From: Sipunculus nudus
Taxonomy: Eukaryota > Annelida > Sipuncula > Golfingiida > Sipunculidae
Assembly (NCBI GenBank): GCA_026874595.1
Contig: CM049316.1
Location: forward strand, 4,726,339-4,790,338
Reading direction: 5' to 3'
DNA: 64,000 nucleotides
This document shows positions 4,045 to 64,000 of the stretch, piece after piece. The notes beneath the pieces are model-generated. The model saw only the letters and a program-made list of their open reading frames with translations, had not been told where the DNA came from and made no database searches. The position numbers and the translations under genes are program-made. Each line of letters opens with the position of its first letter. Positions within the stretch are counted from its first letter, which is position 1.

Positions 4045-7000
4045 ATGAACAGAAGTAACGTGGAAATAAGAAAAACGTGAGTATGACTGGAATTTAACAT
4101 GGAGAAATCACAATATGAACACGGAGGACACGTGATATTACCAACGCTAACTCAATTTAACGCATAAACCGTTTGCAATTTCTCTGGTCGGTTCAAATGT
4201 CACAAGTTACAGCTTGCATGAATGCAAGTTGATAACCTCACTGTGACCGTTACGGGGTTGTTTTCATCTAATATTGTACCTGTCAAGTCGCGTCTTAATT
4301 CATGTATTTGCCCAACGCTGTAAATTCACTCTTTTAAGTATTGTTTTATTCATATTCTTTAAGATATTGGTGCTTCATTGGTAGTTCAATGAATTATGTG
4401 AAGTGAATCACATTTGACTTGGGGGAAAAAATAAAAAGTTAGGATGAGATTTAGATTAAACAGATATAACTTATATTATAAGATCTTTTAAAATATGTTG
4501 CTTTATAATATCAGTGATGTGTTAAATTATTTCACTAAATTTTAGTAGTGTATCACTTTGTTGTTTTTCCTCGGAATAATATTGTATTATTGATGTTTTG
4601 GTAATGGTTTTGTCTGGAAAACACAAGTAAACTTGATTTTACAGACTGAAACAGTAGGTTTCTCCATTATCTTTTACCAAGCAACGAGGTGGTGTTAGCA
4701 GCTCCCTTTTTTTTCATAAAAGGGGGAGGTATTTATACTGGTTTAGGGACATATCGGCCGCCGTCGACATCGGCCGCCGGCCTCAAATGGACCGTACGGG
4801 CCGCCGGCGCCCAGCGGGACGCAATATCGGCCGCCAGCTGCAATTGCCCACAGGCCTGTATTAACTCTGTCAAGTCAACCATATCGGCCGCGGAAAGAAA
4901 AAGGCTACCATATCGGCCGCCGCCTCCTCATTATACGTTTCATTGGATAATCTATAGTCTCTCTCTCTCTCTCTCTCTCTCTCATATTGTATATATAATC
5001 TATGTATATAAATATATATATATATACATACCTACATAAATACTAAAGCATTATAATAAAAATGTAAATAAATTAATAAACCAAATCACCGACTTATCTT
5101 CCAAATAAAGCGAATATAATAAATCAAGGCTTAACATGAATATATTTTATATAAAAAGTTAATGTATTTTGATATAAATTATATAAATATATATATATAA
5201 ATAAACATACTAATTATGCAAGTATACATCGGGTTATCTTCCAGATAGATAATATTGAATAAAACGCCCTCCAGTGTGACTGCTGTGATGGTTGGCAGCA
5301 CCTCAAGTGTAATACAGGAGTGTCAGTTGTGGAATATGAAGAGGCGACCAGAGAAGGGTGGCTTGAATGGATGTGCCAGCCTTGCCGACAGATGGCGACA
5401 TCGCCAGCCGAGAATTCCGCCGAACCTGAAGAACGACAACCTGAACCTGTAGACGAGACCCCAGAAGAAGCAACTACTGCAGCCCCCCTAGATCTGCTTC
5501 AGACCGAACCTGTAGACGAGACCCCGGAGGAAGCAGCTACTTCAGCCCCCATAGATCTGCTTCAGCCCGAACCTGTAGACGTGACCCCGGATTGAGGAAG
5601 CAGCTACTACAGCCCCCATAGATCTGCTTCAGCCCGAACCTGAAGACGTGACCCCGGATCGAAGAAGCAGCTACTGCTGCCCCCATAGATCTGCTTCAGC
5701 CCGAACCTGTAGACGTGTTCCCAGATCGAGGAAGCAGCTACTGCTGCCCCCATAGATCTGCTTCAGCCCGAACCTGTAGACGTGACCCCGGATCGAGGAA
5801 GCAGCTTCTACAGCCCCCATAGATCTGCTTCAGCCCGAACCTGTAGACGTGACCCCGGATGGAGGAAGCAGCTACTGCTGCCCCCATAGATCTGCTTCAG
5901 CCCGAACCTGTAGACGTGACCCCGGATCGAGGAAGCAGCTACTGTTGCCCCCATAGATCTGCTTCAGCCTGAACCTGTAGACAAGACCCCGGAGTAAACA
6001 ACCACTGCAGCCCTCATAGATCTGCATCAGCCCGAACCCGTGGAGGAAGCCCTGGAGGAAGCAGTTAATGCAGCCCCAGAGGAAACACAGGCACAGGACG
6101 CCAGTCTGTACACGGACGACCTCGGTTCCTTCCACGAACCCTCAGCACTGGAAGAAAGGGACTTGGCCGTTTGGTAAAGTTGCTGAACAAGGAGGCACAG
6201 GTTGTGAATATGACAGCCGAACCAGTGTCAAGGGAGCAAGTCTCCAGGATATTGTCACACAGAAGCCGTGACGTAAACAGTCGACTCTTTGCTTTATGTA
6301 GAGAGTATGGGGATGGGGAGCGGAGCGCAACCTCTCTCTTGGCTGCTGGTAGCAGATTGGTTTGCCCAAAACCAAGTCTGCAACCCGCGGACGAGCCGCA
6401 GCAGCAAGAGGACCAGCAAGTGATCGCCTGAGCTATTGTTTTTCTTATTTTTTTTTAAATCTTGTGAGATACATTTATAAATATTCGCTGTGATATCTTT
6501 TTTTTTTCATGTGCTTTTATATTAGTTTTATGTAGATGTGATGATGATGCGTATTAGTAAGTTGGTTTTAGTTAGCTATATAAATATATATATAGCTTTC
6601 CTTGGATTTAAATGAGATTAATGTTTTCCATGTATATTGTTACATTTTTTTGTAAATATTCTTTGTAAATATTAGTACCAAGATTTTCTTTTGTTCACAC
6701 GTTTTAGTAAGATTTTATTGGGTTGGATTTTAGCGTAGAAGTATTGTGATATATAAATATAGTTTATTGAGAAGTTGCTGTGATGCTTTTATCATGCAGT
6801 AGTTTTGGTCAGTGTTTGTAATGGTTATTGTCATTTCTGTAAATATATGTGTATTTACTGTAATTTGTCTTTTTCTGATTGGGAGTTTAAGTGCGTGTTT
6901 GAGGTGGAGTTGAAAACGTTTGCAAAATGCTCGTGGTCACACTGAATAAAAAAAGCTTCAATTCATATAAAATATTGAATGAAAATTGATATGTACATAT

Positions 7001-10000: not shown

Positions 10001-13000
10001 AATTTAGTTAAAATCAGACCCCCACTTCTTGTATGTTGTTCTGTTATTTACCTTAATTGATTTTCAGTCACAGGTGAGAAAGCTTGGTGGGAAGAATGAG
10101 GAGATGGGATTCAAGTTGTCCACTTTTAAATCCTTTATATGAATCATCATAATAACCCGCACTCTCCTAATTTGTAAATATAAAAGCTGAAGCATAGACC
10201 TGCCAGGCTGTTTGTAATAACATTTGCCATTAAAATGTGAAATATAAAATTCTAAATAGATGTTACTGCATCTGTGCCATCTCATTACATTGTTGGTTTC
10301 AGCATTGGGTTTGATTCATAGGTAGGTGTTGCCATCTTGTGGCAAAAACAAAACTAGTTCATCAGCTATAAACTGTTTAATCAGAGGTGTTCCAGTTGCT
10401 TTGTTAAACAACTGAAGATAAAGTGTCTGTTTTGTCATGTGATCAGGCAGAGACAGAGCTACAGAAGGCAGCGGTTGATGCCTCCTGGTCCAATAAACAT
10501 CTTGAGGAAATGATGGACAACTTTGAGAAGAAAAAACTGGTTGATCTGAAGGTAAGATAGTTGTGTGAAAGGTATGAATTACCTCAGCGGCATAGGTACC
10601 TGAAGGTTAACTACAGGTCACAACCAAAATGAAAAGTAAATTTATTATGCCTCAGGAATTTAAAGTTTTATATCAGCTACAGGTTAATACTCAGACATTT
10701 ACTGCAGTGTCTTGGCTACAGGTTAGTACTGTAGTGTTTTGGCTTCAGGTTGGTACTCGGACATTTACTGTAGTGTCTTGGCTACAGGTTAGTACTCAGA
10801 CATTTACTGTAGTGTCTTGGCTACATGTTGTGACTTTTAGGTTATTCCTGGCACTCTGCATGTAAAACCTCAAATCTAGGTGGCTTACTCCTCATTCAGT
10901 AGACAGCGCCACCTACAGGCTGTGGAACACCAGGGTTGGCAAGTTTTAGGCAGGAAGGTTTTAACCATAGGTTTTTACCTGGTTAAAACTGCCCCGCCTA
11001 AAACAGGTTTTGGGCAGGTTTTAGGCACCAAAAGTGCCTAAAACCCATATTTGTTTAAATTTTTACATAAAGATCTATAAAACTACCAAACTGGCTGGGG
11101 TGATGCAGTCACAAAGCTTTGCTGGGCTTCTGGAAGGTTTCAGGTATTACAAGTAATGCATGATTTCCTGTTGGCTGGCATCATGCAGTCTTCAAAGAGC
11201 CTGTATAGGTTTCTTGAGCATGAAACCATGTTTGTGTGGCACATAGTTTCATTGGCCAATGTAATGTCATTATCAGGACCCTTTGGGTTTCCTAATGAGT
11301 GCTCTGCTACCTGGAATGATGTAATAGAGCCTTCATTATGCCTCCTGTAACTTAGTGTGAGGCAGGGTATCAGGGAAGGGGGGGGGGATGGGGGGGGGGG
11401 GGCAGGGGGGGCAGGTCAGACTGGTTAATTACTATTTATCAGGGTGATGGGGTAATAAGACCCAATGGTCATAAGTCCTACTAATGTGTACTAGTAGATG
11501 TTCATGTTAACTTTAATACATGACTAGGATGATCCAATCAAAGTCCTTGCCCTGAAAATTGTTCATGAGTCAAACTTTTTACTGAGTGATGCAGTCAGGG
11601 CCCCTGACCATGACATGTGGGTTTCTCAGGCCTTACATGGCCAAAAAGTGATTATGAATATTCTGTTGTTGGCAACATATTCACTGCAATATATTTTATC
11701 ATTATTTTCAGTTTTATACTAATTATAGTGTTTCATGAGGGTTCATTTTCACAATCTAATCATACAGTTAACATAGCATTTCCATCCTTATATAGACAAT
11801 AAGTATGTGCACAAAATCTAAAAATTTGACAATGGATGACCTAGCTAAGGAAATAAACAACTCGTGGAAATCTTGTTAATTATCAGATAATGTAAAAGAT
11901 AATATCATATTTTAGTTTATGGCTAGCATAAAAGATCTCTTGTTATTTTTAAAATCAATCTTTTGCTTTTTGCCATTTGATGCTACAGGCATTCAAACAT
12001 ACATGTTATGTCAGTGAGACTACAGTATAAAGGACTTTTCATCAGTGTAAATGGAACAACTTTTTCAATTGGGGAAAAGCTTTCGCATATATCACAAAAT
12101 TTAATCCCTTGTGATCAAAAAGCCAATCCAAGAATCTGGTTATAAGCTTACCGTATTAGCATTCATTTATAAATTGGCAGTAATGGAGGTGGGAGACCTC
12201 AGAATATGATTTTGGGATACAAGCCAAAACTGTCATTTGGAAAACCTGAAGTAGTGTTATATTCATTTGTTGCTTTTGTTTGTATCATGGTTTATTTCTT
12301 GAGTTTGAATAAAGTGTTCCTAACTTTAAATTTGTTGAGCATATTTCTGTAATCCATTTAGCTGTGTAACTATAAAACATAGTTTAATGCAGTTAACTGC
12401 AAGTCATAGGTGAGGGTAAGTTAGGTTTTAGGCAGTTAAAGGCATTTTTAGGCAGGTTATAACCTATTTTAGGCAGTTAAAGGCATGTTTTAGGCTCTGC
12501 CCTGCCAAAAACAGGTTTTGGGCAGCCTAAAACCCAACCCTGTGGAACACATTAAAAAAGTAGTTTGGTGTGGTTATTATACCCCGGTCTTATGACGGGA
12601 GTATTATGGTATACTCACCCTCTGTCTGTCCAGTCACTGCAATAACTTACAAAGTCTTTGATGGATTTTTCATGATACTCACCATAAGTACTTCCCAACA
12701 GATTATCTCGCCCAAGTTTGATTATGGGAAATGTCCACACATATTTAATAAGGTCACAGGTCACTCGGCTACTTTGTGGTTTCGCCGCAATAAATTACGA
12801 AGAACATGAAGGATTTTGATAAAATTCATCAGAAATGTTATACAATAAAATATCTTGCGCAAGTTTTAATTCCAGCAAAATCCATGCATATTTAATGAGG
12901 TCAGAGGTCACCACACTTTGGAGGTACCTTGGTGACTAAAAAAAATCCTGTGGATTTACGTGAAACTCATTATACATATTTACCAATATACTTTCTCACC

Positions 13001-16000
13001 TGATTTACATTCTCATAAAAATTAATGCATATCCAATGAGGTCAGAGGTCACCACACTTTGGAGGTACTTGGTAACTTTAAAAAATCCTATGGATTTACA
13101 TGAAACTCATTATACATATTTAACAATAGTTTCTCACCTGTTTTACATTCTCATCATAATTCACACATATTTAATGAGGTCAGAGGTCACCAGATACACA
13201 ACAGGGGTATTATGCACATTTGCTCTTGTTTTCATATAGGATTGTCATCAGTGCCCTCTGCTGGCTAGCATTCAAACCTCGAAATAGTTAGCTTGTGATT
13301 CTGTGGGAGATAGAGCCACAATGAAAGTGCTGTACATGGATAGGTTCACTAACTACTTCTTGCACACAGGTTTTAAACAAATCATTAAGAATTAAACATT
13401 AATGTAATTCTAACCAATCTGTATGGATTCAAGATATTGATACAATATTGACAAATCAGTAGAAATCCAAGAATTTTATACAGAATATGTTGGAATCCAA
13501 GATTTTTATACCATTCTGGTGTAATAGTCTTTCTTTGAATGATCTAGTGTTAAAAAAGTATGATATTTGACATATTTGTTATATTGCAGGTAAATAGTCA
13601 TAGCACTGTTGATTTATATCAGTTATAGGTTTCTTCAAAGATCTTTCTCATTTTGGCCATGTATACTTTTTGGTTTAAATGTAAAAAACCAAATGATGTA
13701 TACCTAATAGAAACCTCCATGGTTTATTACAGTTTTTTCATACAGGAACTTTCAAAACGTTCTCAGGAGATAAGATGACACTCGTCACTCTTTTGATCTT
13801 TCCAGAAAGTTCTCCAGGAGTTTGTAAACATTGAGCTGTTATTTCACGCTAAAGCTCTGGAGATGTACACGCGATGCTTCCACAGCCTGGAGAGGATGAG
13901 TGAGGACGATGATCTGGAGGTAACTGTGTTACATTAATATTACTCTTACTGGGGTATGTTTGTGTGTAACATTGTGACATTAATATAACTCTTACTGGGG
14001 TATGTTTGTGTGTAACTTTGTGACATTAATATTACTCTTACTGGGGTATGTTTGTGTGTGAATTTGTTACTTTAATATTACTCTTACTGGGGTATGTTTG
14101 TGTGTGAATTTGTTACTTTAATATTACTCTTACTGGGGTATGTTTGTGTGTAACTTTGTGACATTAATATTACTCTTACTGGGGTGTGTTTGTGTGTAAC
14201 TTTGTGACATTAATATATCTCCTACTGGGGTATGTTTGTGTGTAACTTTGTGACATTAATATTACTATTACTGGGGTATGTTTGTACGTGTCTGCAGGAT
14301 AACTTTTGAAATGGTTCATTGTTGACAGTAAAAATATACAGACAGATAAGTGTTCCAGTATCATGAATAAAATGTAAAAAGAAGATAAAAAATAGTACAG
14401 TGTGTAACTTTTGTTTTATTGATCAGGATATTATTCTAATTTAAATAATGTTCAATATTTTATAGATATTCATGTTATGGAAGCAAATATAGTTCAAAGG
14501 TACATATGCAGTCACTCACACATGTATACATTCTGTGCTGGGAAAATTCTCACTTAAATACTTTAACTTTTTCATATGCAGCAATTCAGGAATTCCCTCC
14601 GACCAAACAGTACTCAGTCTCGCCTGGACATGCAGCAACGAGCCTCATCAACCAGATCGCTGAACACGACAGACCAGTCTCGTGGAACACCTGGTCAGCA
14701 TCGTCGTCACTCAGACACCCCAGCACTGCGCCCATCTTCAAACGCTTACAACGGTAGAAACTCACAGGTGAGAGTGTCATGAAAGTCTCAGTGTGGTCTG
14801 ACCCAATCACATTTGTTGTCTTTAGTATCATAATACCCATATAAGTTTATAGGTTTAGTTATGAAATTACCCACTAGATACCAGATATTTTGACGGACTT
14901 GCCCCACTATCTGTGATGGATTGCTAGGTCCGACTCGGTGGAGAAGGGGCGTACTGCAGCCTCACTGCTTTTTGCAACATTTTTACCAATGGTGAGTCAC
15001 TGTAACCATAGCGCAGTGAAATGTCCATTTAGATAAGATTCCCAGTATATGATATGTTATTATTTCAAATTAAAAGAAATAATTTTTAACTGCTAGTTCA
15101 TTTTTTAAAAATAGAAAAACAGTAAAAAATTCCTGAGTTTGATTTTCAAACAAATATTTATGTACAAATCGGATGAAAAGGAAGGTTTTATATTCCAGGT
15201 TACAAAGAAAGTACATGTACGGCATTTTAATGTGAAACAGGTTGGTACTGCATGGATTATTAACAGGGGAGAGACTATAACATTTATGCATGAGCTTGAC
15301 AGGTCTGAACTACTCTGAATGAGAGCTTGATCACTGGCAGGTAGTGATGATATATAAACTAACCCATACCATAAAGGATGTGTCCTTAAAATCATCTCAT
15401 AAAATTACTCTGATGGTGGTTGTGTATGTTCTTTGGTCTGAAACTTTGTAGTTATGTCTTCAGTTGCAGTTCATGGGGTTATTAATATTTGGGTTTCACA
15501 TAGACTTTAACAATCAAGCAGTTCTTTCACACAAATCTCAGGTGAATGAGGCTGGGTACTCTTTAATATACTTGTGATTGGTTATCTTGTGAATACTTCT
15601 GATTTTGTGATGATGTGAACTGCATAATTAAAACTATATATTTACAAACAAAAGGTTACTATTAATTAATATATTTTATAATGTAGGTTGTTATACCAAA
15701 ATCAAGCCTGGTCAGTGGTCCTCATAATCTGTACTTCTTCTGAGAGTTCAAGTTAACTTTTGACTTTGTAGAGATTTATAACTCATGAAAATGAAAACAC
15801 TGCAGATATACCAGAATCCTTATTATATTTAAAAATAAAATTTAATAAATAAATAATACAGATTTGGTGCCTGATTACTGCTGTTTTAACATTTCCTATT
15901 GGTGGTAATATTAAATTTTAAGTTTTAAATCACTTCAACAATTTGAGCAGATCTTTTTTATTTCAAGGAAATTAACATATATGTAAAACATTAATTGTTG

Positions 16001-23539: not shown

Positions 23540-38390
<14,851 letters not shown>

Positions 38391-50643: not shown

Positions 50644-53600
50644 ATGGCGTTAGACAGTCGCTATGCCAGGGGCTACGGGGATCTAGCTGACAGATGTGAG
50701 TTTAACATTTGGAGCGAGTATAGAATCCGGCCTACATGGACGAGGTTACGGGTGTATACGGACGGACGGACGTTGTGATGTTTAGTTAGGATTCCTGTAA
50801 ATTAATGGAGAAGTAAGACTAAGAGGCATGTCGATGTCATATCATCAGGCATGTTATGGCTTATATTGATTACTACTAATATGAGACGGTCCAGTCACTT
50901 AGACCCATCTTGGAAATGTAGGCTGGATTCTATACTCGGGCCTTTACGGGGTCCACAGACCAAATCTTATTCGTTTTCTTCTTTTTTTCATGTTGAAAAA
51001 TGAATGTATGTCTAACAATCTTGCCGTCTTGGAATGAAATCCACATAACCATGAACTGGCGCAATCACTTAAAGAAAAGTACTCCATTAAATGATATGTC
51101 ATATTCCAGCTGCAATATGTTTCTGTAGTGTTACTGTACGTTAGTGTTCACATAAAAAGTAACAATATTGACCCAGGCCTGCTGGGCATACTTTTATGTA
51201 CAGAGATGCCAAGTTGGCAGAAACACAATGTGTGAGATTTCAAACTTGTGGCTGTGGCAGTCAAAAACCATGGTTCCTGAACCCCCCCCCCCCCCCCCCC
51301 CCCCTTTCAAGAATGACATTTGCCACCATTGGATCAATCCTGGCTGGCCCACAGGTCCTTCAGGCAAGACACTGCTGGATATCCAAAAATTCGAGCCGCT
51401 GGGCAAGACACCACACCTTGTCAAATGTTCCACTTCCAGTCTTCAAGTTGAAAGAACATATGGGATATAAAATGTTTGGTTTTAACTTGAAAGCTGGGGA
51501 TGACCGGGCCAGGTAACAGAAATCGTGAGATTTATGTCTCTTGGCATAAGAGTGTGAGACCAGGAGTAAATGCGTGAGTCTCATGCCCAGTGTGTGAGAC
51601 TTGGCATGTCTGTATGTATCACTGTCTTTACACCCCAAGAGGTAGTATATTGTTTGATAAAAAATTTAAATTTGTATTTTATTGTAAACTTTATAAGTTT
51701 ATTAGTTTAAAAAGTTTTATTTATTACCTCAAAGAAATTATGTGTTTGGTTGTTAGCACAACCATGCAAAAATTTAAGAAATCTGGTTCATAGACATTTA
51801 TTTAGGGTGAGCCAGCGAAAATCCTGTTATGTACTGGTAGTCCTATAATCAGTATCAGCAACTGGAACAGCTGTAGGCTGAAACCTCTTTAAAAACCCTT
51901 TGTTACTTAAGTTTGTTTCTGTATAGAATTTGGGTTACAAGTTGTGCCTTTCTTGGATCACTCTGGTTACATCAGTGATCTATACAGGACATAAATTATC
52001 AGAAACCATATTTCATTTTGGTGATGATCCAGTAGGATAACTGCCTTGGTGGGGGTATGTGCTTAAACGAGCGCCTCTCTTGTTTGTTACTCTTCAGTGA
52101 GTGATAACCTCCAGCTGACAGTGACACCTAGTGACGTGGAGCAGAACCCCCAGCTGGTGAAGCTGCTGACTGACCTAGGACATCGGCTTGGGCCACAGAC
52201 CCGCACAAAACATGTCCACACCAACCTGACTCATGTAAGTCCCACAGAGATGCGCCAAACATGTCCACACCAACCTTACTCATGTATCGGTAAGTCCCAC
52301 AGACCCACACCAAACATGTCCACACCAACCTTTACTCATGTATCGGTAAGTCCCACAGACCCACACCAAACATGTCCACACCAACCTTACTCATGTAAGT
52401 CCCACAGACCCACACCAAACATGTCTACACCAACCTGACTCATGCAAGGCCCACAGACCCACACCAAACATGTCCACACCAACCTGACTCATGCAAGGCC
52501 CACAGAGATGCGCCAAACATGTCCACACCAACCTGACTCATGTAAGTCCCACAGACCCACACCAAACATGTCCACACCAACCTGACTCATGTATCGGTAA
52601 GTCCCACAGACCCACACCAAACATGTCCACACCAACCTTACTCATGTATGTCCCACAGACCCACACCAAACATGTCCACACCAACCTGACTCATGCAAGG
52701 CCCACAGACCCACACCAAACATGTCCACACCAACCTGACTCATGCAAGGCCCACAGACCCACACCAAACATGTCCACACCAACCTGACTCATGCAGGGCC
52801 CACAGACCTGCACCAAACATGTCCACACCAACCTGACTCCTGCAAGGCCCACAGACCTGCACCAAACAAGTCCACACCAACCTGACACATGTAAGTAAGT
52901 CATAAAGCTAGGATATATCATCAACCTTCCAAGGTGTACCTCTCAGGTAGCTCATTGTCCGCAAGATTTCTTTTTTTGTGACTGATGTCATCTCAATTGT
53001 AAATTTTCTTTTTTATTTTACTGGAATATTTTGATGTTTAATTTTGTCTTGCACAAATATGATGTTTAGCTTAGTTTTGTATAAGGCCATATAGCAAGCA
53101 AGTTCATATGTTACTTAATAATTGGACATTGTAGAATGTAGATTTGTATAAGGTGGCAAGGCAGTTCTAGGGAGCAGTTTTATATAAGGCAATTCTTTTG
53201 AAAATCTTTACATACTAACCTTCCATAAAGAAGTATTTTGCACAAGGTCATTCTTTAAAGAATATTCACGCGAGGACTTAAAAGAATAAAAAAAAGGCTT
53301 TGAAGAACCTCATAAATTCCACCATCAGGACAAGCAACTTGATTTAGAGTATTTATGTGATGGTTAACAACAAACATTTACCCACCGGTAATGTTAAATG
53401 TTAAAAATATCAGGCAAAGGGTAATCTAAGTAGTCGGGGTAAAAAGGAAGGTGCCTTTGGTTCATTACACATTAATCACTGATTGGTTCAATAGAAATTT
53501 TATGCTTTTGAGTTCCCTTAGCACTGTAGTGAAAAATTAAAAAAATGGGGGCTCCATTGTCAGAGGAATTCTGGTGAAAAATAGGTGTATAAATGAATGC

Positions 53601-55735
53601 ATTCTGTTTCAGGCCCTGGAAGGATTACAGACACAAAAGTACCACTGGTTGAAGAACAAGTTGTTATACTCAGAGCTCCAGGACTGCATTACAGATCATC
53701 AGCTACAGCCAAATAAACAGGTAAGGTCAAATATAATATGAGTTTCCATGGCGTGTATTTATAAAGTCTGCTCTGACCTGATAAAATATTATTAAATATT
53801 TTCAATGCTAATGATGCAACCTTTCTACCAACATTTAACCATTAAGTTTATGTTTGTGTGGCTAAATAAATTAAAAAAAAAATGAAATTCCAGTATGGAG
53901 ACCATTGTAACTAGGCTAACACTTACATAAAGTTTAATTCTTAATTTCCATGTAATAATATTCAGTATTAACAGTCAGTAATAAAAAATTTTACAGTATT
54001 AAGGTGACCCTACTCTAATATTTTAGTTGCTTAGTTGACATAGTCCTTTAATGTAAATACAATTGAATATCCTACTGCCTTCTCTTTCACCAGTTTGGTC
54101 AAGTAGCACAGGAATGCTTGACATATGCTGAGCTGGATGATTACCTGGACTGCAGCCTGGATCCACTTAACGATGTCACCCTGCTCAGCCTGACTCCCGC
54201 AGATATCAAAGGTCCTAATACATCACCAAAGGTAATACACGCAAGACAGGAAAGTTGTAGGTATAAACTCAATAGAAATAATTAGGTTGAGATGATCCTT
54301 TGGTTAGTCTGGGTAATTTAATGACACAAAGTGCAGCTATCAATGATAGACTGGGATCTCATTGTATATTTACAGGGTGCAAAGTTACATGCAAGACACA
54401 GGATTTTTATGTGTACTTTAATGCAGTACAGGTATAGAGATGATTATATCTTGACCAAACATTATGCAGCTATTTATTGTAGCCATTGTTGATGGTATGT
54501 GATCTAATAGCTTATTTTCATGTGAGACTAAATACTTGAAATACTTGATACATCAAAGTTTTTTGCTATTTGTTCATTCTTGTGCAGAATTATGAATTTG
54601 ACTTGAGAATTTTGGCAGACACTATGTATTGATCATACCAAACTGAGTTCTCAACAAGACATGACTTTGCACTAATTGTAGTACATGTACATCAGAGTAT
54701 GACAATCCTGCTAAGTGAAGTATACTTTGTAACTTATGGCTTCTCTGTGAGAAATAGCTCGTCATCACAGTGACAAGTGGACATGCACTGACGGACTGTA
54801 TTTGTATTGTATTACAGCAGGTAGCAGCCCTGCAACAGACCTTGATCCCAGAGCTGGAGCAGAGGCTGAGGAAGCACTGCAATGAGCTGGTCCAGTTCTT
54901 CAGACCCTCAGACTCAGCTGGTGAGAAAAAAATGTTAGAACTGTGAAGATAATACAGGCATTAGGATGAAATGGTCTGCTATCCTCTCCATTGACTTGGT
55001 ATCATCAGTTCTCTTCCTTTTGTGATATGCTGGATTTTAAACAGGAAATTATTTTTGTCTGCATTTAATTTTTGCAGTGAATGAAATCCATGTTTGTCAG
55101 GATAGATCCATGTATGGAAATAATACAAGGGGATGTGAAGTAAGCGTCTCCGATCCTTCAGATCTGTTACTAATGCTTTAAATGCTGTAAATAACTCATT
55201 GTATCCAGCTGAAGTATTGTTACTAAATTTTGCATTTAACAAAGTTCTTTTATAAAGGATGCGTCCATGGGCAAGAAGTTGTCACTAGTTATTAAATTAA
55301 AATTTAATCCTGTGGATTTCAGGCTTTGTGTGCATGAAGTTAGGAATAGCCCAGAAGTAATGAAATGCAGATGAAACATCACACCAAATCTCTCTGATTC
55401 TATCACGATTTTACCATGTTGCTTCTGTGTAGTGGTAAAAAGAACTGACCAGGGACCTTCCGCTCCAAGTTTAGTCTTTAACTAGGTAGTATCCTAACAT
55501 TTATAGGGTAAAGTCATGCTATGTGTACAATTCTGTTTCATACCAGGAATTTCATATTCATTAGAAGTATTGATGATGATTGTCAATTTCTGCAGATGAC
55601 CAGATGAAGGGTTTTGGACCAAGCACGGAGCTGTCACAGCTGGTGGAGAGTGATTCATGTACCCTGGAGAATGAGCGGAGAGTGCTTAGGAAAGACAAGG
55701 AGACCAACCAGAAGTACTGTAGACAGTATTACCAG
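50644..55735 (+). CDS. HAUS4: HAUS4, augmin complex subunit (5' part; gene continues past window)
   Basis: Six exons: 50644-50695, 52098-52234, 53613-53720, 54094-54231, 54818-54920, 55596-55735. They read in phase for 226 residues and end at the donor CCAG|GTGAAT; the rest must lie beyond the satellite. Recognition rests on VEQNPQLVKLLTDLGHRL (about 31-48), the helical QTQKYHWLKNKLLYSELQD, LLSLTPADIK and LQQTLIPELEQRLRKHCNEL, which follow the order of vertebrate HAUS4. HAUS4 is one of eight augmin subunits that recruit gamma-tubulin to spindle microtubules for branching nucleation. Exon 5 has a CAGCAG tandem acceptor. Exons 2 and 6 each have their 3' end copied into a tandem array downstream. 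The assignment is from conserved pattern, without a search. Confidence 0.85.
50696..52097 (+). other. HAUS4 intron 1
   Basis: Holds the TIR-flanked segment at 51198-51614 with a poly-C run (51281-51304). The rest is plain AT-rich sequence. Confidence 0.55.
51198..51614. mobile_element. Possible MITE with short TIRs
   Basis: TACAGAGATGCCAAGT at the left and ACTTGGCATGTCTGTA at the right are inverted copies with one mismatch. GTGTGAGA occurs near both ends. No clear target duplication beyond TA, and no coding signal. Confidence 0.45.
52193..52896 (+). repeat. 49-56 bp tandem array that copies the HAUS4 exon 2 / intron 2 junction
   Basis: About 14 units of ACCCACACCAAACATGTCCA + CACCAACCTGACTCATG + (TAAGT or CAAGG)CCCACAG. 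Some units carry an extra TATCG before GTAAGT. Unit 1 is the last 40 nt of coding exon 2 plus its donor GTAAGT (52235). The array thus contains several further intact GTAAGT donors (near 52290, 52346, 52395, 52542, 52597, 52890) and several GC-type GCAAGG versions. Confidence 0.9.
52897..55595 (+). other. HAUS4 introns 2 (rest) to 5
   Basis: Contains exons 3-5. No mobile element recognised in the introns. Confidence 0.55.
54816..54820 (+). promoter_or_regulatory. HAUS4: NAGNAG tandem acceptor of HAUS4 exon 5
   Basis: ATTACAGCAG|GTAGCA offers two acceptors 3 nt apart, giving protein with or without one Gln before VAALQQ. Phase is kept by both. Confidence 0.6.
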
Positions 55736-58700
55736 GTGAATATTTAAACAATTCACACTGATAATCTTTTATGTAAAATTTAAACAAATTAGAAGTTCTG
55801 TTGACTGTATTACCAGGTGAATATTTAAACAATTCACACTGATAATCTTTAATGTAAAATTTAAACCAATCAGAAGTTCTGTTGACTGTATTACCAGGTG
55901 AATATTTAAACAATTCACACTGATAATCTTTTATGTAAATTTTAAACCAATTAGAAGTTCTGTTGACTGTATTACCAGGTGAATATTTAAACAATTCACA
56001 CTGATAATCTTTTATGTAAATTTTAAACCAATTAGAAGTTCTGTTGACTGTATTACCAGGTGAATATTTAAACAATTCACACTGATAATCTTTTATGTAA
56101 ATTTTAAACCAATTAGAAGTTCTGTTGACTGTATTACCAGGTGAATATTTAAACAATTCACACTGATAATCTTTTATGTAAAATTTAAACCAATTAGAAG
56201 TTCTGTTGACTGTATTACCAGGTGAATATTTAAACAATTCACACTGATAATCTTTTATGTAAATTTTAAACCAATTAGAAGTTCTGTTGACTGTATTACC
56301 AGGTGAATATTTAAACAATTCACACTGATAATCTTTTATGTAAAATTTAAACCAATTAGAAGTACTGTAGACAGTATTACCAGGTGAATATTTAAACAAT
56401 TCACACTGATAATCTTTTATGTAAAATTTAAACCAATTAGAAGTTCTGTTGACTGTATTACCAGGTGAATATTTAAACAATTCACACTGATAATCTTTTA
56501 TGTAAAATTTAAACCAATTAGAAGTACTGTAGACAGTATTACCAGGTGAATATTTAAACAATTCACACTGATAATCTTTTATGTAAAATTTAAACCAATT
56601 AGAAGTTCTGTTGACTGTATTACCAGGTGAATATTTAAACAATTCACACTGATAATCTTTTATGTAAAATTTAAACCAATTAGAAGTACTGTAGACAGTA
56701 TTACCAGGTGAATATTTAAACAATTCACACTGATAATCTTTTATGTAAAATTTAAACCAATTAGAAGTTCTGTTGACTGTATTACCAGGTGAATATTTAA
56801 ACAATTCACACTGATAATCTTTTATGTAAAATTTAAACCAATTAGAAGTTCTGTTGACTGTATTACCAGGTGAATATTTAAACAATTCACACTGATAATC
56901 TTTTATGTAAAATTTAAACCAATTAGAAGTTCTGTTGACTGTATTACCAGGTGAATATTTAAACAATTCACACTGATAATCTTTTATGTAAAATTTAAAC
57001 CAATTAGAAGTTCTGTTGACAGTATTACCAGGTGAATGTTTAAACAATTCACACTGATAATCTTTTATGTAAAATTTAAACCAATTAGAAGTTCTGTTGA
57101 CTGTATTACCAGGTGAATATTTAAACAATTCACACTGATAATCTTTTATGTAAAATTTAAACCAATTAGAAGTTCTGTTGACTGTATTACCAGGTGAATA
57201 TTTAAACAATTCACACTGATAATCTTTTATGTAAAATTTAAACCAATTAGAAGTACTGTAGACAGTATTACCAGGTGAATATTTAAACAATTCACACTGA
57301 TAATCTTTTATGTAAAATTTAAACCAATTAGAAGTTCTGTTGACTGTATTACCAGGTGAATATTTAAACAATTCACACTGATAATCTTTTATGTAAAATT
57401 TAAACCAATTAGAAGTTCTGTTGACTGTATTACCAGGTGAATATTTAAACAATTCACACTGATAATCTTTTATGTAAAATGTAAACCAATTAGAAGTACT
57501 GTAGACAGTATTACCAGGTGAATATTTAAACAATTCACACTGATAATCTTTTATGTAAAATTTAAACCAATTAGAAGTTCTGTTGACTGTATTACCAGGT
57601 GAATATTTAAACAATTCACACTGATAATCTTTTATGTAAATTTAAACCAATTAGAAGTTCTGTTGACTGTATTACCAGGTGAATATTTAAACAATTCACA
57701 CTGATAATCTTTTATGTAAAATTTAAACCAATTAGAAGTACTGTAGACAGTATTACCAGGTGAATATTTAAACAATTCACACTGATAATCTTTTATGTAA
57801 AATTTAAACCAATTAGAAGTTCTGTTGACTGTATTACCAGGTGAATATTTAAACAATTCACACTGATAATCTTTTATGTAAAATTTAAACCAATTAGAAG
57901 TACTGTAGACAGTATTACCAGGTGAATATTTAAACAATTCACACTGATAATCTTTTATGTAAAATTTAAACCAATTAGAAGTTCTGTTGACTGTATTACC
58001 AGGTGAATATTTAAACAATTCACACTGATAATCTTTTATGTAAAATTTAAACCAACTAGAAGTTCTGTTGACTGTATTACCAGGTGAATATTTAAACAAT
58101 TCACACTGATAATCTTTTATGTAAAATTTAAACCAATTAGAAGTTCTGTTGACTGTATTACCAGGTGAATATTTAAACAATTCACACTGATAATCTTTTA
58201 TGTAAAATTTAAACCAATTAGAAGTACTGTAGACAGTATTACCAGGTGAATATTTAAACAATTCACACTGATAATCTTTTATGTAAAATTTAAACCAATT
58301 AGAAGTTCTGTTGACTGTATTACCAGGTGAATATTTAAACAATTCACACTGATAATCTTTTATGTAAAATTTAAACCAATTAGAAGTACTGTAGACAGTA
58401 TTACCAGGTGAATATTTAAACAATTCACACTGATAATCTTTTATGTAAAATTTAAACCAATTAGAAGTTCTGTTGACTGTATTACCAGGTGAATATTTAA
58501 ACAATTCACACTGATAATCTTTTATGTAAATTTTAAACCAATTAGAAGTTCTGTTGACTGTATTACCAGGTGAATATTTAAACAATTCACACTGATAATC
58601 TTTTATGTAAAATTTAAACCAATTAGAAGTACTGTAGACAGTATTACCAGGTGAATATTTAAACAATTCACACTGATAATCTTTTATGTAAAATTTAAAC

Positions 58701-61700
58701 CAATTAGAAGTTCTGTTGACTGTATTACCAGGTGAATATTTAAACAATTCACACTGATAATCTTTTATGTAAAATTTAAACCAATTAGAAGTACTGTAGA
58801 CAGTATTACCAGGTGAATATTTAAACAATTCACACTGATAATCTTTTATGTAAAATTTAAACCAATTAGAAGTACTGTAGACAGTATTACCAGGTGAATA
58901 TTTAAACAATTCACACTGATAATCTTTTATGTAAAATTTAAACCAATTAGAAGTTCTGTTGACTGTATTACCAGGTGAATATTTAAACAATTCACACTGA
59001 TAATCTTTTATGTAAATTTTAAACCAATTAGAAGTTCTGTTGACTGTATTACCAGGTGAATATTTAAACAATTCACACTGATAATCTTTTATGTAAAATT
59101 TAAACCAATTAGAAGTACTGTAGACAGTATTACCAGGTGAATATTTAAACAATTCACACTGATAATCTTTTATGTAAAATTTAAACCAATTAGAAGTACT
59201 GTAGACAGTATTACCAGGTGAATATTTAAACAATTCACACTGATAATCTTTTATGTAAAATTTAAACCAATTAGAAGTACTGTAGACAGTATTACCAGGT
59301 GAATATTTAAACAATTCACACTGATAATCTTTTATGTAAAATTTAAACCAATTAGAAGTTCTGTTGACTGTATTACCAGGTGAATATTTAAACAATTCAC
59401 ACTGATAATCTTTTATGTAAATTTTAAACCAATTAGAAGTTCTGTTGACTGTATTACCAGGTGAATATTTAAACAATTCACACTGATAATCTTTTATGTA
59501 AATTTTAAACCAATTAGAAGTTCTGTTGACTGTATTACCAGGTGAATATTTAAACAATTCACACTGATAATCTTTTATGTAAAATTTAAACCAATTAGAA
59601 GTTCTGTTGACAGTATTACCAGGTGAATATTTAAACAATTCACACTGATAATCTTTTATGTAAATTTTAAACCAATTAGAAGTTCTGTTGACTGTATTAC
59701 CAGGTGAATATTTAAACAATTCACACTGATAATCTTTTATGTAAATTTTAAACCAATTAGAAGTTCTGTTGACTGTATTACCAGGTGAATATTTAAACAA
59801 TTCACACTGATAATCTTTTATGTAAAATTTAAACCAATTAGAAGTACTGTAGACAGTATTACCAGGTGAATATTTAAACAATTCACACTGATAATCTTTT
59901 ATGTAAAATTTAAACCAATTAGAAGTACTGTAGACAGTATTACCAGGTGAATATTTAAACAATTCACACTGATAATCTTTTATGTAAAATTTAAACCAAT
60001 TAGAAGTTCTGTTGACTGTATTACCAGGTGAATATTTAAACAATTCACACTGATAATCTTTTATGTAAATTTTAAACCAATTAGAAGTTCTGTTGACTGT
60101 ATTACCAGGTGAATATTTAAACAATTCACACTGATAATCTTTTATGTAAATTTTAAACCAATTAGAAGTTCTGTTGACTGTATTACCAGGTGAATATTTA
60201 AACAATTCACACTGATAATCTTTTATGTAAAATTTAAACCAATTAGAAGTACTGTAGACAGTATTACCAGGTGAATATTTAAACAATTCACACTGATAAT
60301 CTTTTATGTAAAATTTAAACCAATTAGAAGTACTGTAGACAGTATTACCAGGTGAATATTTAAACAATTCACACTGATAATCTTTTATGTAAATTTTAAA
60401 CCAATTAGAAGTTCTGTTGACTGTATTACCAGGTGAATATTTAAACAATTCACACTGATAATCTTTTATGTAAAATTTAAACCAATTAGAAGTTCTGTTG
60501 ACTGTATTACCAGGTGAATATTTAAACAATTCACACTGATAATCTTTTATGTAAAATTTAAACCAATTAGAAGTACTGTAGACAGTATTACCAGGTGAAT
60601 ATTTAAACAATTCACACTGATAATCTTTTATGTAAAATTTAAACCAATTAGAAGTACTGTAGACAGTATTACCAGGTGAATATTTAAACAATTCACACTG
60701 ATAATCTTTTATGTAAAATTTAAACCAATTAGAAGTACTGTAGACAGTATTACCAGGTGAATATTTAAACAATTCACACTGATAATCTTTTATGTAAAAT
60801 TTAAACCAATTAGAAGTACTGTAGACAGTATTACCAGGTGAATATTTAAACAATTCACACTGATAATCTTTTATGTAAAATTTAAACCAATTAGAAGTAC
60901 TGTAGACAGTATTACCAGGTGAATATTTAAACAATTCACACTGATAATCTTTTATGTAAAATTTAAACCAATTAGAAGTTCTGTTGACTGTATTACCAGG
61001 TGAATATTTAAACAATTCACACTGATAATCTTTTATGTAAATTTTAAACCAATTAGAAGTTCTGTTGACTGTATTACCAGGTGAATATTTAAACAATTCA
61101 CACTGATAATCTTTTATGTAAATTTTAAACCAATTAGAAGTTCTGTTGACTGTATTACCAGGTGAATATTTAAACAATTCACACTGATAATCTTTTATGT
61201 AAAATTTAAACCAATTAGAAGTACTGTAGACAGTATTACCAGGTGAATATTTAAACAATTCACACTGATAATCTTTTATGTAAAATTTAAACCAATTAGA
61301 AGTACTGTAGACAGTATTACCAGGTGAATATTTAAACAATTCACACTGATAATCTTTTATGTAAAATTTAAACCAATTAGAAGTACTGTAGACAGTATTA
61401 CCAGGTGAATATTTAAACAATTCACACTGATAATCTTTTATGTAAAATTTAAACCAATTAGAAGTACTGTAGACAGTATTACCAGGTGAATATTTAAACA
61501 ATTCACACTGATAATCTTTTATGTAAAATTTAAACCAATTAGAAGTACTGTAGACAGTATTACCAGGTGAATATTTAAACAATTCACACTGATAATCTTT
61601 TATGTAAAATTTAAACCAATTAGAAGTTCTGTTGACTGTATTACCAGGTGAATATTTAAACAATTCACACTGATAATCTTTTATGTAAAATTTAAACCAA

Positions 61701-64000
61701 TTAGAAGTACTGTAGACAGTATTACCAGGTGAATATTTAAACAATTCACACTGATAATCTTTTATGTAAATTTTAAACCAATTAGAAGTTCTGTTGACTG
61801 TATTACCAGGTGAATATTTAAACAATTCACACTGATAATCTTTTATGTAAATTTTAAACCAATTAGAAGTTCTGTTGACTGTATTACCAGGTGAATATTT
61901 AAACAATTCACACTGATAATCTTTTATGTAAAATTTAAACCAATTAGAAGTTCTGTTGACAGTATTACCAGGTGAATATTTAAACAATTCACACTGATAA
62001 TCTTTTATGTAAATTTTAAACCAATTAGAAGTTCTGTTGACTGTATTACCAGGTGAATATTTAAACAATTCACACTGATAATCTTTTATGTAAATTTTAA
62101 ACCAATTAGAAGTTCTGTTGACTGTATTACCAGGTGAATATTTAAACAATTCACACTGATAATCTTTTATGTAAAATTTAAACCAATTAGAAGTACTGTA
62201 GACAGTATTACCAGGTGAATATTTAAACAATTCACACTGATAATCTTTTATGTAAAATTTAAACCAATTAGAAGTTCTGTTGACTGTATTACCAGGTGAA
62301 TATTTAAACAATTCACACTGATAATCTTTTATGTAAATTTTAAACCAATTAGAAGTTCTGTTGACTGTATTACCAGGTGAATATTTAAACAATTCACACT
62401 GATAATCTTTTATGTAAATTTTAAACCAATTAGAAGTTCTGTTGACTGTATTACCAGGTGAATATTTAAACAATTCACACTGATAATCTTTTATGTAAAA
62501 TTTAAACCAATTAGAAGTTCTGTTGACAGTATTACCAGGTGAATATTTAAACAATTCACACTGATAATCTTTTATGTAAATTTTAAACCAATTAGAAGTT
62601 CTGTTGACTGTATTACCAGGTGAATATTTAAACAATTCACACTGATAATCTTTTATGTAAAATTTAAACCAATTAAAAGTACTGTAGACTGTATTACCAG
62701 GTGAATATTTAAACAATTCACACTGATAATCTTTTATGTAAAATTTAAACCAATTAGAAGTACTGTTGACTGTATTACCAGGTGAATATTTAAACAATTC
62801 ACACTGATAATCTTTTATGTAAAATTTAAACCAATTAGAAGTTCTGTTGACAGTATTACCAGGTGAATATTTAAACAATTCACACTGATAATCTTTTATG
62901 TAAATTTTAAACCAATTAGAAGTTCTGTTGACTGTATTACCAGGTGAATATTTAAACAATTCACACTGATAATCTTTTATGTAAATTTTAAACCAATTAA
63001 AAGTACTGTAGACTGTATTACCAGGTGAATATTTAAACAATTCACACTGATAATCTTTTATGTAAAATTTAAACCAATTAGAAGTACTGTTGACTGTATT
63101 ACCAGGTGAATATTTAAACAATTCACACTGATAATCTTTTATGTAAATTTTAAACCAATTAGAAGTTCTGTTGACTGTATTACCAGGTGAATATTTAAAC
63201 AATTTACACTGATAATCTTTTATGTAAAATTTAAACCAATTAGAAGTTCTGTAGACTGTATTACCAGGTGAATATTTAAACAATTCACACTGATAATCTT
63301 TTATGTAAAATTTAAACCAATTAGAAGTACTGTAGACAGTATTACCAGGTGAATATTTAAACAATTCACACTGATAATCTTTTATGTAAAATTTAAACCA
63401 ATTAGAAGTTCTGTTGACTGTATTACCAGGTGAATATTTAAACAATTCACACTGATAATCTTTTATGTAAATTTTAAACCAATTAGAAGTTCTGTAGACA
63501 GTATTACCAGGTGAATATTTAAACAATTCACACTGATAATCTTTTATGTAAAATTTAAACCAATTAGAAGTACTGTAGACAGTATTACCAGGTGAATATT
63601 TAAACAATTCACACTGATAATCTTTTATGTAAAATTTAAACCAATTAGAAGTTCTGTTGACTGTATTACCAGGTGAATATTTAAACAATTCACACTGATA
63701 ATCTTTTATGTAAAATTTAAACCAATTAGAAGTTCTGTTGACTGTATTACCAGGTGAATATTTAAACAATTCACACTGATAATCTTTTATGTAAAATTTA
63801 AACCAATTAGAAGTACTGTTGACTGTATTACCAGGTGAATATTTAAACAATTCACACTGATAATCTTTTATGTAAAATTTAAACCAATTAGAAGTACTGT
63901 AGACAGTATTACCAGGTGAATATTTAAACAATTCACACTGATAATCTTTTATGTAAAATTTAAACCAATTAGAAGTTCTGTTGACTGTATTACCAGGTGA
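55711..64000 (+). repeat. 81-bp satellite (about 102 copies) derived from the HAUS4 exon 6 / intron 6 junction
   Basis: The unit is GAAGTACTGTAGACAGTATT + ACCAG|GTGAATATTTAAACA + ATTCACACTGATAATCTTTT + ATGTAAAATTTAAACCAATT + A. Unit 1 begins inside coding exon 6: its last 25 nt are identical to the A variant of the repeat. The array runs unbroken to the window edge. Two main head variants alternate (A: GTACTGTAGACAG; B: GTTCTGTTGACTG), and independently GTAAAATTT or GTAAATTTT in the tail. All copies keep CCAG|GTGAAT. The antisense frame is open because 81 = 27 x 3; one base is missing near 57635, splitting it in two. Not coding. Confidence 0.97.

Follow-up and report, generated by a model that had tools for sequence, protein, structure and literature searches.

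Intron 6 of the HAUS4 gene of Sipunculus nudus is built largely of tandem copies of the gene's own exon 6/intron 6 junction: a single exon is followed there by about 280 near-identical units of 81 base pairs (bp), nearly all of which keep the exact 5' splice site (donor) of that exon. The gene lies in a stretch of 64,000 nucleotides (nt), which we call the window, at positions 4,726,339 to 4,790,338 on the forward strand of contig CM049316.1 (assembly GCA_026874595.1). With a probability of roughly 70%, we consider the array to be a minisatellite of the type known in amphioxus as a mirage, which would have grown where it stands and be tolerated because the true donor is transcribed first. A single genome assembly underlies all of our results, and the HAUS4 and FAM92 exons and arrays described here are on the forward (+) strand.

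Results

The identity of the gene, proposed as HAUS4 in a preliminary description made from the sequence alone, is borne out by two comparisons. The protein joined from exons 2-9 matches positions 13-235 of the 235 in the Pfam HAUS4 profile (E = 5e-60), and it is collinear with the HAUS4 chain of Protein Data Bank (PDB) entry 8at2, which we take to be that of Xenopus (E = 3.7e-35), with no break across the exon 6/exon 7 join. The downstream exons, whose presence that description had left to be confirmed, still match HAUS4 beyond the array. When the genome was searched for the HAUS4 family, all seven candidates were scored and two matched, both of them exons of the present gene; 14 pattern matches in viral contigs yielded no confirmed HAUS4. 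The first coding exon was not found in our reading of HAUS4 around the array, and the numbering used here assumes that there is one.

Exon 6 (55596..55735; 140 nt) supplies the repeat. Its donor, which follows position 55735, is the first of a long series, and each unit is made up, in this order, of about 33 nt from the end of exon 6, the exact donor, and some 48 nt of the intron. The preliminary description was thus right about the unit length and the inclusion of the exact donor, but it had set the exonic share at 25 coding bases, where Tandem Repeats Finder (TRF) gives about 33 nt. Within the window TRF reports an array from 55703 to 64000 with a period of 81, 102.5 copies and a 97% match, and CCAGGTGAAT occurs there 102 times at a spacing of 81 bp (100 times) or 80 bp (once). 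The earlier count of about 102 copies running off the window therefore holds for the window itself, while the whole is larger than was claimed: followed onward along the contig in four more stretches, the array comprises 280.6 copies over 22.7 kilobases (kb) and stops at joined position 78425 (C11:4804763). Intron 6 is in phase 0 and extends from 55736 through the end of the window at 64000 to joined position 80784, with exon 7 starting at 80785. The array accounts for 91% of these 25,049 bp, and the intron would measure about 2.4 kb without it.

Copies of the donor are preserved almost throughout. Across the whole array, 282 sites lie within three mismatches of TATTACCAGGTGAAT, and 280 of them, counting the true donor, keep CAGGTGAAT intact in the form CAG|GTGAAT, which agrees with the expectation of more than 100 decoy donors just after the true one. 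One of the two remaining sites reads CAGGTTAAT and the other is a diverged edge copy. Neighboring sites are 81 bp apart in 275 of the 281 intervals, 80 bp apart in five and 87 bp apart in one. The dominant form of the unit (189 of 282 sites) has 5 differences from exon 6 within the last 33 exonic positions and, read in the frame of the exon, contains stop codons, and a second, exon-like form (55 sites) is identical to exon 6 over its last 26 nt.

The array is a local, recently homogenized minisatellite, as can be seen from the small number of forms it contains (28 among 275 full-length units), the mean identity of these units to their consensus (98.6%), and two diverged copies that lie past its 3' edge at about 78447-78622 in joined positions (local alignment score 107, against a maximum of 80 in 200 shuffles). 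The last ten exonic columns are invariant across the 275 full-length units. A 90-nt stretch of the consensus has 115 exact matches in the 1.43-gigabase genome, all of them forward, and 115 in the array; the exact consensus unit is confined to one locus. On the basis of these genome-wide exact matches, which place the unit only in HAUS4 intron 6, we rejected an origin from a mobile element, and the copy number together with the identity to the exon excludes an origin by chance.

The consequences of using a decoy can be read from the same sequence. Read-through from the true donor begins GTG AAT ATT TAA, an in-frame stop directly after the donor, and splicing from a decoy would add 81n nt with this beginning, so that full-length HAUS4 would be obtained only if the decoys are ignored. 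Mini-exons of 24 nt between successive units, an idea raised in the preliminary description, find no support: the acceptor (3' splice site) that they would need, TTAG|AAG, scores -6.4 to -8.0, compared with -0.09 to 5.57 for the real HAUS4 acceptors, and the dominant 189 copies have an in-frame TGA in that stretch. These and all other splice-site scores use human weights.

We also considered the array as a structured RNA, a candidate that was rejected since three units fold no better than their shuffles (z -0.60); Rfam gave no match at its gathering threshold across 52000-58000. The HAUS4 donor itself can pair with a downstream ATTCAC in a 28-nt hairpin of -6.5 kcal/mol. At the true end of exon 6 (55713-55760), two adjoining hairpins are possible, one formed by AGTACTG and CAGTATT before the donor and the other by CAGGTGAAT and ATTCACACTG over the donor, and a 60-nt fold of this region has an energy of -13.7 kcal/mol. 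Judged from the sequence, the dominant decoy variant no longer has the complementarity on which the first of these hairpins depends.

Two further arrays in the window, which the preliminary description had overlooked along with the donor cases in other genes, are linked to donors, one of them in the same gene. At HAUS4 exon 2 (52098..52234; 137 nt; donor CAT|GTAAGT), a 49-bp unit made of 42 nt of exon and 7 nt of intron is repeated from 52193 to 52896 in 14 copies by TRF, with several of its decoy donors decayed to GCAAGG. The other array adjoins a FAM92 exon (13806..13919; Pfam FAM92, E = 2.8e-23), whose end coincides with the end of the profile match and exactly abuts eight copies of a 46-bp unit (13920..14285) that begin at the G of the exon's donor GT. 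As the 46-bp unit contains no exon bases, the decoys of this array have no AG before their GT. On reading, the arrays at 10676, 21302 and 36373 in the window straddle no identifiable exon end.

Because the exon 2 and FAM92 arrays came to our attention after the window had been chosen, we turned to an independent sample, namely the first 60 of the 75 exon matches from a genome search with the Pfam myosin-head profile. Exon ends were placed by the profile matches, and 401 bases around each donor and around each acceptor side were cut out (from trimmed pieces of about 1 kb for the first 20 exons) and examined with TRF and a self-shift scan, which detected all three of the window donors used as positive controls. 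Of the 60 exons, 6 have a tandem duplication that straddles the donor, and 0 of the 60 have one across the acceptor. The six cases lie on six contigs, and in each the unit is the sequence of its own exon. Their units measure 36 bp (L052, about nine copies in the cut), 30 bp (L061, about eight copies), 61/35 bp (L096, about three copies), 83 bp (L063, about two copies), 35 bp (L097, two copies) and 56 bp (L041, two copies, seen by self-shift only, with a score of 16 where shuffles reached at most 12). In L063 the protein reading continues over a short intron into the next exon. Repeats near a boundary were left out of this count if they began past the donor (by about 22 nt in L105 and about 115 nt in L035) or ended before the acceptor (by about 25 nt in L125), as were repeats at some distance from the boundary that were short or scored low (L053, L100 and L070).

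The resulting donor rate is 10% (95% interval 4-21%), and the difference from the acceptors has a two-sided p of 0.027 in Fisher's test. Mid-intron points, taken at a distance of 150 nt from the exon, are covered by arrays in 3 of 120 cases when straddling arrays are left out, and against this background the donor excess has p = 0.004. We consider the recurrence of tandem duplications at donors to be firm, and the restriction to donors to be suggestive. Among the myosin matches, several that adjoin one another at C2:44849337-44854198 correspond to one short stretch of the myosin head (about 90-153 of the profile) and resemble a set of alternative exons from a muscle myosin gene.

Discussion

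The explanation that we favor begins with a tandem duplication of the HAUS4 exon 6/intron 6 junction, which would have served as the seed of the minisatellite. Unequal exchange or replication slippage may then have expanded it to its present set of about 280 near-identical 81-bp units. The intron is most likely spliced out as one 25-kb piece from the first, true donor, which is transcribed before all the others and is the sole donor that closes a genuine exon having its own acceptor upstream; its use would hide every decoy behind it. A similar logic may extend to other junctions, since a duplication that straddles a donor keeps the right donor first, whereas one that straddles an acceptor puts the wrong acceptor first and would tend to be purged. 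Selection against such wrong-first acceptor duplications would produce a bias toward donors.

A wider proposition, which we advance tentatively and rate at somewhat less than even odds, is that the 5' splice site acts as a standing seed of satellites in the S. nudus genome. About one in ten donors would then carry a tandem duplication of its own junction while few or no acceptors do so, and this asymmetry would be the genome-scale footprint of a rule by which the first splice site transcribed wins. HAUS4, with 280 donors in one intron, would be the extreme case, and some of its units might act as ratchet points as well. Several observations weigh against the explanation that we favor. Without L041, which TRF did not find, the comparison with acceptors becomes 5 of 60 against 0 of 60 (p = 0.057); counting L052 and L061 in the mid-intron background raises it to 5 of 120 (p = 0.038, or 0.10 if L041 is dropped too). 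TRF found an array at none of the 20 donors of the first 20 sampled exons, all sampled exons come from one protein family, and amphioxus mirages also occur at acceptors (PMC3087553), so the donor bias may not be general. Moreover, array donors are no stronger than others (6 vs 54, p = 0.95) and the local folding energy does not differ either (9 vs 54, p = 0.62), although the 54 donors used for comparison were placed only approximately, at the best-scoring position. Given these null results we find no sequence reason for the seeding, and strong donors were dropped as a candidate for what seeds the arrays.

The same two null results bear on an explanation in which donors are simply prone to tandem duplication as mutational hot spots, with no need for selection on splice-site choice. 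Such a hot spot would yield the observed contrast of 6 of 60 donors with 0 of 60 acceptors, yet neither donor strength nor folding separates the array donors from the rest, within the limits of the approximate comparison, and we regard it as unlikely. An artefact of assembly, with an array that is really shorter or that the assembler collapsed or expanded, would be a natural concern for near-identical units that run across 22.7 kb. We nonetheless judge this highly improbable, because the array contains 28 variants in an ordered series and five 80-bp units, has unique flanks on both sides and no N within it, and is matched elsewhere by like structures at a short, unambiguous scale (L097 and L041).

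Two other explanations would give the decoys a role. In recursive splicing, a possibility raised in the preliminary description, CCAG|GTGAAT units could serve as ratchet points from which the intron is removed stepwise, leaving no trace in the messenger RNA. The sequence allows this. The dominant variant scores 1.43 as an acceptor and 4.79 as a donor, and its acceptor score is above those of exons 3, 5, 6 and 7 and within the range of the real HAUS4 acceptors (5.57, -0.09, 5.35, 0.74, 0.86, 1.05 and 4.75 for exons 2-8). The exon-like variant scores -3.15 and 4.79; in the dominant variant, three A-to-T differences from exon 6 do away with two AGs upstream and raise the acceptor score from -3.15. 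The array holds 195 AG|GT pairs that pass both score thresholds, whereas two random blocks of 100 kb each (on C2 and C5), which carry no gene annotation and serve as background only, hold 4 and 2. Ratchet points described for long introns of Drosophila need a downstream cryptic exon and donor (PMC8605326), and nearly every HAUS4 unit has an AG|GT and, downstream of it, a short cryptic exon and another donor, 81 nt on in 275 of the 281 intervals. Unlike the Drosophila ratchet points covered there, however, the putative ones of HAUS4 would have a modest acceptor score and no long intron before the array. Among random AGs, about 7% reach such a score with the human weights, an intron of about 2.4 kb lacking the array would need no ratchets, and the decayed or weak decoys of the exon 2 and FAM92 arrays indicate that such sites are not maintained in general. 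We therefore think a ratchet function quite unlikely. It is less likely still, in our view, that the decoys are useful by holding the U1 small nuclear ribonucleoprotein (snRNP), whether they shield a long intron from premature polyadenylation or boost expression. Protection of long introns by U1 snRNP in this manner is termed telescripting. The density of donors would suit such a role, as 280 of them score at least as high as the true donor within 22.7 kb (about 12 per kb) compared with 39 and 46 per 100 kb in the random blocks, and so would the donor bias of the myosin sample. However, AATAAA and ATTAAA are both absent from the 81-bp unit, decoys have decayed in other arrays (to GCAAGG at exon 2 and ATGTAC in L063), and homogenization alone accounts for the invariance.

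A locally grown and tolerated mirage, the explanation that we prefer, belongs to a kind of structure that is already known, of which HAUS4 is an extreme case. Mirages are minisatellite-like tandem duplications of exon-intron boundaries in the amphioxus genes Adh3, the globins Gb6 and Gb9, PGBD5 and TnC, and they are reported to leave splicing normal (PMC3087553, PMC3902484). The preliminary description did not mention this precedent. Both they and the HAUS4 array have a tandem unit that reaches across the junction of exon and intron in a real gene, a splice signal in many units, and a homogenized core with diverged edge copies, and unit sizes are similar (30-83 bp in S. nudus arrays, 10-160 bp in amphioxus). 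The HAUS4 array differs in scale, with about 280 copies over 22.7 kb compared with 3 and 6 units in two amphioxus Gb6 haplotypes, and S. nudus differs in showing duplications on the donor side only, in the 60 exons sampled, rather than on both sides. The gain of introns through tandem genomic duplication at AGGT (reviewed in PMC3443670) likewise involves a segment bearing AG|GT, but in HAUS4 the duplicated segment contains a donor that was already in place, and an intron that was already present became longer. Among invertebrates with repeats of this general kind, the abalone has a polymorphic 27-bp minisatellite in a gene intron (PMC6905558) and earthworm metallothionein genes have intron minisatellites and fourth-exon duplications (PMC12783039); the available parts of these two reports do not describe units built from splice sites. 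Our literature search, which was thin on subscription papers, found no mirages outside cephalochordates. Within the literature searched, what is new is the size of the array, the restriction to donors in an independent sample and the presence of two arrays in one gene, and the animal group is probably different from the cephalochordate hosts of mirages. A muscle myosin exon from the genome ranks PDB chains 3i5f, 2ec6, 2os8 and 1dfk, all mollusc myosins, first, with Myosin-6 some 3 bits lower; with the cluster of myosin exons on C2 this hints weakly at a protostome, perhaps a mollusc, while mollusc haemocyanin and egg lysin had no match, a result that carries no information either way.

Our findings bear on how splice sites are chosen. 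HAUS4 exon 6 amounts to a natural competition experiment in which about 280 copies of an exon's own junction come after that exon, 279 having an identical 9-nt donor; the rule by which the spliceosome selects the first donor, whatever it is, must hold there. If the donor-only pattern proves to be genome-wide, the choice among equal neighboring splice sites, a question of long standing, would become something that can be counted in genomes, and a route would be apparent from coding junctions to satellites and very long introns. Arrays of this type would probably also confuse gene prediction and the alignment of RNA reads.

Other features of the window

The remaining HAUS4 exons read in the window are exon 3 (53613..53720), exon 4 (54094..54231) and exon 5 (54821..54920), the last with an acceptor, ACAGCAG, that leaves an ambiguity of 3 nt. 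At 5443-6038 a 67-bp tandem repeat occupies a GC-rich and possibly coding stretch, for which reading gave no gene call; since 67 cannot be divided evenly by 3, the reading frame would shift from one copy to the next. At 25645-26462 in the window, at joined positions 99747-101151 and in the C2 and C5 blocks there are dispersed tandem families, whose units measure about 277-280 and 335-340 bp. Several of these families share GGTGGCGCCACC-like cores, and they may represent a mobile family with internal tandem repeats.

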